Shown here piece by piece: positions 32,269-53,382 of a stretch of DNA of 64,000 nt. The translations under genes were made by a program, and so were the position numbers. A model generated the notes under the pieces. It was not told the origin of the DNA and ran no database searches. It was given only the letters and a program-made list of their open reading frames with translations. The stretch lies in assembly GCA_937958005.1 (NCBI GenBank), contig CALGOB010000062.1, positions 62,001 through 126,000 of the forward strand, given 5' to 3'. This stretch comes from an uncultured Cyclobacteriaceae bacterium. GTDB taxonomy: Bacteria > Bacteroidota > Bacteroidia > Cytophagales > Cyclobacteriaceae. Position 1 is the stretch's first letter, and each line of letters begins with the position of its first letter.

Positions 32269-33021
32269 TCAAAAGGATAGTTTTTTAATGGTTATACCTT
32301 CCTTTTCACTTTCACCAAAACAACACCTTGCTTGTTCAGAAAAAGTAGTCCACTTATTATTCTGTAAAGTGACATTTCTCCAATCTTTTAGCATTTTACC
32401 CGACAGGTCATAAACTGTCCAACCCTTTCATTTCTGATGCTAATGTAAGCTGACCTTCTGCGCCATAAATTGCCAATAGGTCTAAAGCATGGTTCGCGGA
32501 ATTACATTCAATAGTGTTAAGAATTCTTCCTACTTCTATTCGGAACCTATTTTTAAATTCTCCTTTTTCACTGATGAACTCATAACTTCCTGTAGCCAGG
32601 TTATGGATGGTACTGGTAAATTGATCTTTTAACCAGATTTCTTCGATTTCTGATGAGTTGGTTTCTTTTAAATTGAAGTAGTATTTTCCGCTTTCAGCTA
32701 CTTTAATGCCGATCATCATCGATCGGTTTTCCAAACTACCCGCCTGTATGGCATATGAACCCGAATGATGGTTTCATATGCTGTAGACTTGGTGTGCTGC
32801 TCCGTTATTGAATGAACCAACCCCGACACAAGGGTACGGGGTATCTATGGGCAATAATTTAATGATCGACTCAAGAGTCGGGGAATTAATATCCCTTAGG
32901 GATTAAAGGTGCATCAAAGTCAATGTCAAACATAGGAGTTGCTTCGTCTGTAAAGCCTACCAAAGTTTCATTATGGCTTACTGGAATCGTAATATCACAT
33001 ACTCTAATGAGTAGCACTAAA
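32269..33021 (-). pseudogene. Remnant of a T9SS-sorted secreted protein, split by the hairpin element
   Basis: Minus-strand translation gives pieces of the C-terminal region of a type IX-secreted protein: RVCDITIPVSHNETLVGFTD up to FDAPL (about 33020-32907), then, after the element at 32813-32902, NNGAAHQVYS, YAIQAGSLENRSMMIGIKV, YEFISEKGEFKNRFRIEVG, and a tail VYDLSGKMLKDW ending ITIKKLSF. The pieces lie in different frames with internal stops. At least three frameshifts occur, near 32775, 32410 and 32320. The pattern (SLENRSM, GxYEF, NRFRI, VYDLSGK) is typical of Cytophagales T9SS C-terminal regions. Only this tail remains; the main part of the protein is gone. The open stretch at 32408-32734 is part of this remnant. 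Confidence 0.75.
32813..32902 (+). mobile_element. 90-bp hairpin-rich MITE-like element, copy A
   Basis: It runs from TGAACCAACCCCGAC to ATCCCTTAGGGA and is closely similar to the copy at 51580-51673. Three hairpins can be drawn: CCCCG/CGGGG, CGACTC-AA-GAGTCG, and ATCCCT-T-AGGGAT. The right flank is TTAA; the left flank is TGAA, consistent with a TTAA duplication with one change. Removing the element and one TTAA joins the pseudogene codons into a readable APLNNGAAHQVYS. It encodes no protein, so movement would depend on an enzyme supplied elsewhere. Confidence 0.7.
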
Positions 33022-50805: not shown

Positions 50806-51194
50806 TTAAAGAGCTTGTCTAAACGAGATAACATACCCCTTCTTTCACATCAAAACCACGCATACCATATTCTCTATCTGCTATAGGGTTTGCAATTGTC
50901 ACTCTCTTCTTTTGACTCTCTCATATAATAGATCTATATCAAAAACAAAAACATATAAAGACACAGGACTATTGAGGGTCGATTGATGTGAAGAATCCGA
51001 CCTGCTAAGGTGTCTGCTAACAGCTTCTTCTCTATTCATCACAAGAAAATCGATTGGGTTGTCCCACTTAGAAGTAATAGTAAATCCTAACTTTTCTGTA
51101 TAAAAAATGGCTGATTCTTCAGGATCAGCTACTGGCAATATAGTTGCTGCGTGTGAAACATCTTTTTAGAATTTAACTTGTTTTCCTCTTTCAT
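50806..51194 (-). pseudogene. Frameshifted VOC/glyoxalase-family gene
   Basis: The longest open piece (50899-51138) reads PVADPEESAIFYTEKLGFTI and VYVFVFDIDLLYERV-like text, the first half of a vicinal-oxygen-chelate (glyoxalase/bleomycin resistance) fold. A likely start, ATG at 51192-51194 (MKEENKLNSKK), is in another frame. The family's C-terminal end also persists out of frame: IANPIADREYGMRGFDVKE, then GYVISFRQAL before a stop at 50806-50808. At least three indels are therefore needed to restore one protein of about 125 residues. It is non-functional as read. Confidence 0.75.
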
Positions 51195-51241
51195 TTTCAA
51201 AAGATCATTTTAGTTCAAAAATTAACCGCTAGTAAGGTAAA

Positions 51242-51858
51242 CTATTCTAAAGATAGCAAAGCATGGTATGGATCACCCGTGAGGTTTAGCAGTTTGCAAA
51301 ACGCAGCTTCCGTTTTCATCCCATTTTTTTTCAGCTCAATAATGGACTCTCTAAATTGTTCCCCTTTAGTCTTTAACAATTTAAATTCAATCAATAGATG
51401 TCGATAGGCCAAATGCTTTTCAATTGCTTTATTCTGTCCAAAAATTTCTACCTCAAAACCAGCTATCTGAAATCTGGCTATAACGGCACCATCATTATCA
51501 AAAACTTTTTGGTTAATTGAGAAACTAATTTCATTTTCAAAATTCAATTTTAGTAAGCTAATAAATTCTTTTTCGTTAATGAACCAACCCCGACCCAAGG
51601 GTACGGGGTATCTCTATCGGCCAAAAGCTTTTTTATCGACTCAAGAGTCGGGGAATTAGGTATCCCTCAGGGATTAAAATCACATATGATATCTATATCA
51701 CTAGTTTCTATTGCAATGTCAATGGGGATAGTTCCTACAAAAACGGGATTAAATTCATCTAAAACCTCAAAAATCTTTCGTTCCTTAAAAATACTAAACA
51801 CTTCTTTTTGTAGAGAAGTACCCTCTTTTAGATAAGATAATTCCTTAAAATTGATCAT
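51242..51858 (-). pseudogene. DUF4269-family gene interrupted by the hairpin element
   Basis: The N-terminal part (51858 down to 51674) reads MINFKELSYLKEGTSLQKEV to VGTIPIDIAIETSDIDIICDFN. After a 94-bp insertion, the rest (51579 down to 51242) reads NEKEFISLLKLNF to NLTGDPYHALLSLE. Joined at the TTAA junction (DFN-EKEF), they give one protein of about 170 residues with the DUF4269 pattern (nucleotidyltransferase-like GTIPIDI and SDIDIIC). The insertion adds a stop right after DFNP and shifts the frame, so the intact protein is not made. Confidence 0.85.
51580..51673 (+). mobile_element. 94-bp hairpin-rich MITE-like element, copy B
   Basis: It runs TGAACCAACCCCGACCC to ATCCCTCAGGGA with TTAA on both sides (51576-51579 and 51674-51677), a clean 4-bp target duplication. 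It has the same three hairpins as copy A: CCCCG/CGGGG, CGACTC-AA-GAGTCG and ATCCCT-C-AGGGAT. The linker between hairpins 1 and 2 differs much more than the hairpins do. It interrupts the DUF4269 gene; excising it with one TTAA restores the reading frame. Confidence 0.8.
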
Positions 51859-51903
51859 TCTAAAATGTTTTACATCATTAAAGCAAATGTATAAAGCAAC
51901 TAA

Positions 51904-53382
51904 CTATTTTGTTTTGAAAGTACCAACCACTCTTTGTATATCTTCAGAAACTTTTTTTAATTCTTCTGAGTAGTTTGCCAACTGGCCAGCGGAAGCATCA
52001 TTCTGTTGAGATATCTGATTTAACTCTTGCATAGATACATTGATTTGATCAGTCCCCATTTTTTGTTCTGCACTACTCACGCTTATATCTTTCACTAATT
52101 CTGCAGATTTCGAAATTTCTTTTACACTTTCTTCTAATGCTAAACTAGTTTTTTCAACCATTGTCATACTTTCTATAGAAAGTGCAACAATCTCTTCAGA
52201 AGCATTTTTACTTTTCTCAGCTAATTCTCTAATTTCCTTTGCTACTACTGCAAATCCTTTACCATGTTCTCCAGCCCTAGCCGCTTCAACAGCGGCATTC
52301 AATGCCAGCAAATTTGTTTGATCAGATATTTCATTGATCAAATCAATTTTATTAGATATCCCTTTAATAGACTCAAAGCCCTTGGTCGCTACTTGCTTAA
52401 GGTAATTAATTTTAGCGACTGTATTTTGCGAACTAAGACTGGTCTCGGAGGCATTACTAGAGTTTAAACTGATACTAGATGTCATTTCCTGAATAGATGC
52501 CGATACTTCCTCTGCAGTAGCTGCTAAAGTAGATGCCCGCATATTCAATTCTTTTGAATCTTCAGTCAATTGCCGACTTGTCAAGTTCATGCTTGTTGAT
52601 TGATCATCCAGTGTACTCACTATATCAGAAAATCTTTCCACCATGATATTCATTGCATACATTACTGCTGTAATTTCATTCTTCTTCCCTAGTGGCATTG
52701 CTATTGTCAGATCTCCTTTCCCTAAGGCTTTTAAGAATCTTAGCATTTTTTGAATAGGGTTCATGATACCCGTTAATAATATAAAAGTACCTAAGATGGC
52801 AATTATCATAGTTAAAAAAAGCATCGCCAAAAGAAAGTCATTTCGATTTTTAGATTTTCGATTGTTATCCGCAACCATTGCTTTAACCAGCTGATTATTG
52901 GCTAATAGCATTTGATCAACCATCCTATTTAGATTATGATGAGCAGTTTCTTTTTCTAGTTTATCCCCACTTATAATCTGTTGTGCATAAGATTGATATT
53001 TTTCCCAAGTGGAGTCTATTACAGCCATTTCTTTGGCAAAAAGATTTCCAACGCCCTTTATTTGGACTCCTTCATCAGAAATTCCTCCTTTTCGGATCAC
53101 TTGTAACGATGCATGATGAAGCGCTATTGATTCGGATAAGGAAACAACAGCCTTTTTATTTCCACTAGCTACTTCTGAAGCAGAGTAGGCTATACGTTGT
53201 GATAACATTCTATTCCTACCAGATATATCGATCAAAAATCCGTTTTCATATAAGTCCTCCCAATTAGATATGAAGTTTATTGTTGAAAATATAAATGACA
53301 GGACAAAAAGAGCTATTACCCTTGTTATTACTGACTTAAACAATAATTGTTTGAGTTTTTTTTTATTTAATAATAATGTCAT
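51904..53382 (-). CDS. Methyl-accepting chemotaxis protein with PilJ-type N-terminal sensor
   Basis: A 492-residue inner-membrane chemoreceptor. TM1 is at about 19-38 and TM2 at about 183-205, enclosing a periplasmic sensor with the motif [12 protein letters not shown] (54-65) typical of PilJ/type-IV-pili methyl-accepting sensors. A HAMP domain follows (about 206-258), then a coiled-coil signalling domain with the conserved tip [20 protein letters not shown] (351-370) that contacts CheA/CheW. No che gene lies nearby. The signal it senses and the motility machine it drives are unknown. Confidence 0.92.

Follow-up and report, generated by a model that had tools for sequence, protein, structure and literature searches.

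What kind of element is a hairpin-forming insert of fewer than a hundred bases that interrupts a gene between two TTAA tetranucleotides, and what moved it there? The question is raised by a locus in the window, by which we mean the whole stretch of 64,000 nucleotides that was analyzed, where such an insert (at about 51580-51673) lies inside a minus-strand gene whose two halves each match the DUF4269 profile (positions 3-40 at 45.8 bits for the N half, positions 43-151 at 125.3 bits for the C half). The answer that we consider very probable from sequence comparison is that the insert is a PATE, that is, a non-autonomous, palindrome-ended derivative of the IS200/IS605 family, and that a Y1 transposase probably mobilizes it in trans. 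It could also be called, loosely, an IS200-type MITE, being a left end and a right end without the tnpA core.

Much of the original prediction for this locus is borne out: the insert forms a hairpin, both gene halves match DUF4269 and TTAA is present on both sides. The prediction was also right that an empty site can be reconstructed, but its boundaries (94 bp, or 98 bp with one TTAA) and the junction CDFN-EKEF that it proposed are one codon off. When 95 nt are removed, residues 39-187 of the joined protein align without a gap to DUF4269 columns 3-151 at 183.9 bits, as compared with 178.0 bits when 98 nt are removed, and CDFNNEKEF is the better-fitting junction. The net insertion is therefore best taken as 95 nt rather than 98 nt, which makes the empty site one codon longer than first proposed. 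A net length of 98 nt, which the reading frame allows (it differs by 3), is disfavored by the profile score and also by a nested copy and a guide rule, both described below. The fold of the 102-base insert region is moderately better than that of shuffled sequences (z of -1.6 and -1.8, with 11 and 9 of 200 shuffles as good), and there were no Rfam matches up to an E value of 1 in positions 51000-52200 of the window. The features at the locus, together with a second copy elsewhere in the window, are as follows.

51242..51858, minus strand: split DUF4269 gene, seen as a 63-aa ORF (51858-51667) and a 118-aa ORF (51598-51242), both entering the element
51579..51673, minus strand: inserted element (net length 95 nt), running from T(+1)CCCTGAGGG to GGTTCAT, the transposon top strand being the window minus strand; placed by the frame test, the gapless DUF4269 profile, nested copy C41 and the guide/cleavage rule
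51674..51677, minus strand: TTAA, target and left cleavage site (C_L), part of TT(T/G)AA^T and kept once in the flank
51579..51582, minus strand: TCAT, right cleavage site (C_R); 152 of 153 copies end in TCAT, followed by T in 150 of 153
32812..32902, minus strand: second window copy, of the 91-nt form, between listed ORFs, with its TTAA target at 32903-32906

Copies and boundaries

The genome, a draft assembly (96% complete, 267 contigs), contains the 34-base core of the right end at 443 places (226 and 217 on the two strands, with up to 3 mismatches allowed), whereas the reversed pattern was found at none on either strand; the element is thus a repeat and not a chance hairpin. A 28-base version of the core was found at 452 places. 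A search with the 114-base element region gave at least 41 matches in the same genome at E <= 0.001 (40 of 612 candidates were scored), so the possibility that the insert had no other copies fell away. At about 97 nt each, copies at all 443 core places would make up some 0.8% of the genome.

Copies were collected from 70 pieces totaling 1,712,870 bases (31% of the genome), in which there were 156 full copies, 39 with a left end only and 21 with a right end only; since the sampled stretches came mostly from contigs known to carry copies, the density in the sample is not that of the genome. A smaller sample of 1,138,701 bases held 90 full, 22 left-end-only and 13 right-end-only copies and recovers the copy in the DUF4269 gene, which is missed by an earlier element pattern applied to the same bases (78, 27 and 17, respectively). 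Several of the one-ended cases are full copies with diverged ends. Our flank counts use 153 of the 156 full copies (three lack a 30-base flank), and the frame test described below drops 10 whose flanks are short (5 of 90 in the smaller sample). The length is 89-111 nt in 150 of the 156 full copies, which is too short for a transposase gene.

Among the 153 copies there are 72 distinct sequences, a 91-nt form being represented by 38 identical copies and a 105-nt and a 95-nt form by 15 each; no two copies share the same pair of flank sequences. The 38 identical copies suggest that the element spread recently, and it may still be transposing. The 91-, 95-, 105- and 109-nt forms result from two left-end types (124 and 29 copies) in combination with a GC-rich stretch of 14 bases that either precedes the left hairpin or is absent, and this mosaic may reflect exchange between copies. 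Certain diverged copies (e.g., in the C57, C204 and C252 stretches) have, at the tip of the left hairpin, the right hairpin or both, an additional stretch of about 30 bases that resembles a stem-loop, as though there were older forms with longer hairpins; many of these would escape the core pattern. We also noted two copies (L012 and L022) with flanks alike on both sides, where a larger repeat carrying the element may be duplicated, and a locus (L186 on C201) where two opposite copies border what is apparently the same coding stretch (shared residues, two joined frames), a possible rearrangement.

The flanks of the copies define the target. On the transposon strand the left side reads T (150 of 153), T (152) and T or G (143 and 9), followed by AATCCC in 149, and AAT follows T, T and T/G in 151. 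TTAA accordingly adjoins the left-end side in 143 of the 153 copies and TTGAA in 9. On the far side, TTAA is present in 18 copies as compared with 16 expected from base composition, which is the level of chance, and the bases outside AATGAACC vary from copy to copy; beyond the target and the ends, no flank position is comparably conserved. The right-hand TTAA of the copy in the DUF4269 gene is the conserved target and left cleavage site, whereas the left-hand TTAA is a chance occurrence, made up of the conserved AA of AATG and two flank bases. Thus, TTAA is a target that is kept once, not a target-site duplication, and the clean duplication that the original prediction had read from this one copy is not a property of the family.

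Two further results fix the boundaries. When the TCCC...TTCAT unit was removed, a long frame was restored across the junction in 10 of 146 copies, whose net lengths fall in all three residue classes (5, 3 and 2), whereas removal of one or two bases more or fewer gave a long frame in none of the 146; in the first sample, similarly, 8 frames were restored and none with shifted removal. The test is blind to length differences of 3. The nested copy (C41:19872, in transposon orientation), whose target was the TTAA of an older copy, shows the TCCC...TTCAT unit and has no far-side TTAA. Neither the net length nor the empty site would change with cuts at TTTAAT^ and TTCATT^ in place of TTAA^ and TCAT^, and we prefer the latter pair solely because of the guide rule. 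The boundaries of the element are in this way settled to within one shared base. There is no inverted repeat between the two ends, TCCCT... and ...TTCAT.

End hairpins, guide sequences and a partner IS

The genome has 12 matches to Y1 transposases, two of which, L033 (intact) and L038 (decayed), are linked to the element. L033 is a 545-nt element of the form TTTAA^TCTCTTAGGG...AATTCCCCGACCCTTGGGTCG...tnpA...GATACCCCGTACCCTTGGGTCGGGGTTGCTTCAT^T. Its intact tnpA encodes 151 aa, which match the IS200 transposase model NF033573 at 125.7 bits (cut-off 55) and PF01797 at 116.9 bits. The protein is related by sequence to solved transposases, including ISHp608 (chain 2a6m), and its HVH and the Tyr of NYVRDQ, which we take to be the catalytic HUH motif and tyrosine, align with a solved transposase. 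The right end of L033 is identical to that of the element at 34 of 35 positions. Its left end, which was read by eye and was not found by the BLAST search that found the right end, is identical to the commoner form of the element in 35 of 41 columns (a score reached by none of 2000 shuffles) and to the form in the DUF4269 gene in 34 of 42. L038 is 69-73% identical in pieces, with its right end present. The remaining Y1 genes and fragments (L031, L032, L034-L037 and L039-L042), several of which have in-frame stops or lie near contig ends, are a more distant group; those matching the L033 protein do so at 29-36% identity. Judged by its ends, the miniature element looks like an L033-type IS minus its core, although L033 itself is perhaps not the direct parent. 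The original prediction was right to see in the insert a mobile element that is not autonomous and probably depends on an enzyme encoded elsewhere, and to see a disrupted gene.

The hairpins and putative guides of the copy in the DUF4269 gene, as predicted by DNA folding and by comparison with L033, are the following.

51662..51674, minus strand: small left-end hairpin ATCCCTGAGGGAT (DNA fold), not predicted in the L033 left end
51654..51657, minus strand: AATT, putative left guide at the foot of the left hairpin, +17 to +20 here; 149 of 153 copies have AATT with C as the next base
51637..51650, minus strand: left hairpin CGACTCTTGAGTCG (DNA fold), with the same place and form in L033 (CGACCCTTGGGTCG)
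51609..51612, minus strand: GATA, putative right guide at the foot of the right hairpin; 144 of 153 copies have GATA with C as the next base, and GATA is present in IS200 relatives
51588..51608, minus strand: right hairpin CCCCGTACCCTTGGGTCGGGG with a bulged T (DNA fold), its stem kept paired in 20 related right ends

In IS608 the cleavage and guide tetranucleotides are TTAC and AAAG on the left and TCAA and GAAT on the right, according to the available text of PMC5934647. Applied in silico to the element, the IS608 pattern of pairing would be satisfied by three of three pairs for TTAA with AATT and by three of three for TCAT with GATA, as compared with 0, 1, 1 and 1 pairs for four shifted cuts; that source, in its available part, spells out two pairs for the left end, and the third was read off the IS608 tetranucleotides. 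One left pair fails in the nine TTGAA copies. L033 thus combines a Y1 transposase match with predicted guide/cleavage pairing at both of its ends, as expected for an IS200/IS605 element. Two of our searches used a right-end motif that included GATA, and so they do not test the GATA guide.

Support for the hairpins themselves is moderate in fold z-scores (-2.7 and -1.7 for the left and right ends of the element, -1.1 and -2.7 for those of L033), and the CCC at the foot of the left hairpin is unpaired. Across 20 distinct 33-base right ends, the right-end stem is paired in 96.3% of cells and has two-sided changes in 9 cells, as compared with 2.4 in shuffles and 0 to 3 when the stem is slid; the number of its pairs with a two-sided change (three) is not above that in shuffles, 101 of 500 being as high. 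Only the inner pairs are informative here, because the outer stem was fixed by the search pattern.

In our view the likeliest course of events is the following. The element would have arisen by deletion of the core of an IS200/IS605 element with the ends kept. When its strand became single-stranded, as on the lagging-strand template, a TnpA dimer supplied from elsewhere (the intact copy being L033) would grip the two hairpins, and the tetranucleotides at their feet, AATT on the left and GATA on the right, would position cleavage at TTAA^ and TCAT^. The single strand would then leave as a circle, to be inserted on the 3' side of a TTAA elsewhere (TTTAA with a T after it being preferred), without duplication of the target.

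Genomic placement and rival explanations

The copies are depleted in genes. Long frames held only 8 of 85 copies, and 10 of 146 when more were sampled, but 658 of 1000 randomly chosen points and 544 of 1000 TTTAAT sites. A test against called ORFs placed 3 of 156 copies inside ORFs, but it leaves the element in place and therefore misses broken genes. The DUF4269 insertion is one exception to this avoidance, and the gene is broken.

The copies are also biased in strand. With 8-kb flanks, copies whose transposon strand is the locally G-rich one outnumber the others 92:53 (n = 145, p = 0.0015), and where the absolute skew is at least 0.05 they do so 60:23 (n = 83, p = 6e-5), whereas control TTTAAT sites split 2153:2140. 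The split is weaker with 3-kb flanks (93:63, p = 0.02) and 5-kb flanks (93:61, p = 0.012) and slight with 20-kb flanks in the smaller sample (29:22). Convergent gaps carry most of it (28:11, as compared with 40:31 in co-directional and 15:11 in divergent gaps). The bias fits a lagging-strand preference if the G-rich strand is leading-strand sequence, an indirect argument that runs through GC skew.

How do other explanations fare against these observations? A MITE of the classical sort, belonging to a DDE transposon that moves as a double strand and duplicates TTAA, would account for the TTAA on both sides of the copy in the DUF4269 gene, and MITEs are indeed short, non-coding and repeated. We nevertheless consider this extremely improbable: the chance frequency of far-side TTAA in the flanks of the other copies already contradicts it, its two ends do not form an inverted pair and resemble those of an IS200 element, and removal of 95 nt scores higher against DUF4269 than removal of 98 nt. 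What was found speaks for IS200/IS605 chemistry on a single strand and against a transposase that duplicates TTAA. Scarcely better placed, and in our judgment very unlikely, is a REP or REPIN element spread by a domesticated TnpA_REP (RAYT), as several hundred short, mostly intergenic hairpin copies in a genome with a dozen Y1 matches might suggest. The L033 protein (the only one scored) is above the IS200 cut-off and below that of the REP model (22.7 bits against 80), the feet of the hairpins carry AATT and GATA instead of GTAG, and each copy has two ends, both with a site that looks like a cleavage site, while similar ends bound an intact IS.

A third explanation, which we regard as unlikely but less so than the other two, is that the element was once mobile, that its insertions are old and that it is now kept as a functional hairpin, either a terminator or a stabilizer of mRNA. 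The avoidance of genes and a slight excess of copies between convergent genes (39 of 136 classed copies, as compared with 23% of intergenic bases) are in keeping with such a role. Depletion in genes is, however, expected from selection alone, the sets of identical copies suggest recent spread, and orientation relative to the genes in co-directional gaps is even (36:35). For a terminator in particular, the orientation and position of the copies give no clear support. The copies may have a secondary effect on transcripts.

The reading as a PATE agrees with what was found on the following points: the element has no terminal inverted repeats, has palindromes near both ends, causes no target duplication (153 flanks and the nested copy), is too short to encode a transposase and has ends related to those of an IS200/IS605 element.

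Distribution and comparison with known systems

The element core was not found in 58 relatives, one of them of the same genus, nor was the 28-base core found in 389 other genomes drawn from the order. No DUF4269 gene carrying the element sequence as part of an intact gene was seen among the 58 relatives, as the original prediction would have it, but an empty site could not be read in the same-genus genome (G001), which is unaligned at this place. When the window and other loci were compared with stretches (up to 20 kb each) of 20 of the 190 contigs of G001, there were two short BLAST matches, both away from the insertion; when 6 kb around the insertion were compared, other parts matched at 70-79% and the place of insertion was unaligned. 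An L033-type tnpA was not found in G001, G002, G005 or G008 in a search run without a positive control.

Relatives of the tnpA gene were found in other taxa (28 in all), and we read the flanks of nine of them by eye. Five (L099, L100, L101, L105 and L106) have both TTAATC...AATTCC and GATACC...TTCATT ends, one (L104) has the right end only, and three (L102, L103 and L107) have neither end in full. Among 395 genomes from the phylum, 34 contain a generic form of the right-end motif, with 362 exact places in the present genome and 1 to 15 in each of the other 33; the rest have none. The genomes of seven of the tnpA relatives have 0 to 6 right-end places, and thus the burst of copies is not general.

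The kind of element is already known, and we found no description of this particular family in the available text of the literature searched (ISfinder apart). The PATEs of Haloquadratum walsbyi, as the available portion of PMC3119063 describes them, lack terminal inverted repeats, have near-end palindromes like those of IS605-type transposons, cause no target duplication and are too short for a transposase, some having arisen by core deletion. Our element shares with them the end palindromes, the lack of inverted repeats and the lack of duplication. It differs, on the same text, in its bacterial host, in having one intact solo tnpA as its partner and in numbers: 177 and 194 PATEs over six families in two strains of H. 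walsbyi, as compared with 443 core places for one family here. This is an unusually high copy number for a PATE-like element. A bacterial example, the PATE-like sequence of Halanaerobium hydrogeniformans, is likewise an ends-only relative of IS605 but is, in the text available from PMC7290912, one sequence of about 271 nt, as against hundreds of about 90-110 nt here.

As for autonomous elements, IS608 and ISDra2 resemble ours, on the evidence of the text available from PMC5934647, in their end hairpins, in guide/cleavage pairing (in silico here), in keeping the left target once and in preferring a particular base just 3' of the target (C for IS608 and G for ISDra2, T here). The same text sets them apart in their targets, TTAC or TTGAT as against TTAA (TTTAA^T); our element, moreover, has no genes, and its 545-nt partner IS has room for tnpA only. 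REP and REPIN sequences with their RAYTs, as presented in the accessible parts of PMC6006769 (see also PMC3116915), are similar in their many short, mostly intergenic hairpin copies and their link to a Y1 transposase, and differ in that L033 passes the IS200 model and not the REP model and that ours is a two-ended unit with no GTAG foot.

Finally, the locus illustrates how boundaries drawn from many copies corrected a reading of TTAA duplication that had been based on one. The 156 full copies sampled and the 443 core places are a large natural data set from which to study how single-strand transposition chooses its targets, which strand it prefers and what it costs in fitness. That hundreds of ends-only copies stand beside a single intact tnpA is relevant to how REP-like repeats may derive from IS200/IS605 elements. 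We put forward tentatively, and with some doubt, the idea that we see here a natural step from an IS to a REP population, in which one surviving ordinary IS200 TnpA would sustain several hundred ends-only copies that outnumber their parent more than 200-fold in one species (the parent being counted, in a draft assembly, as one intact and one decayed copy).
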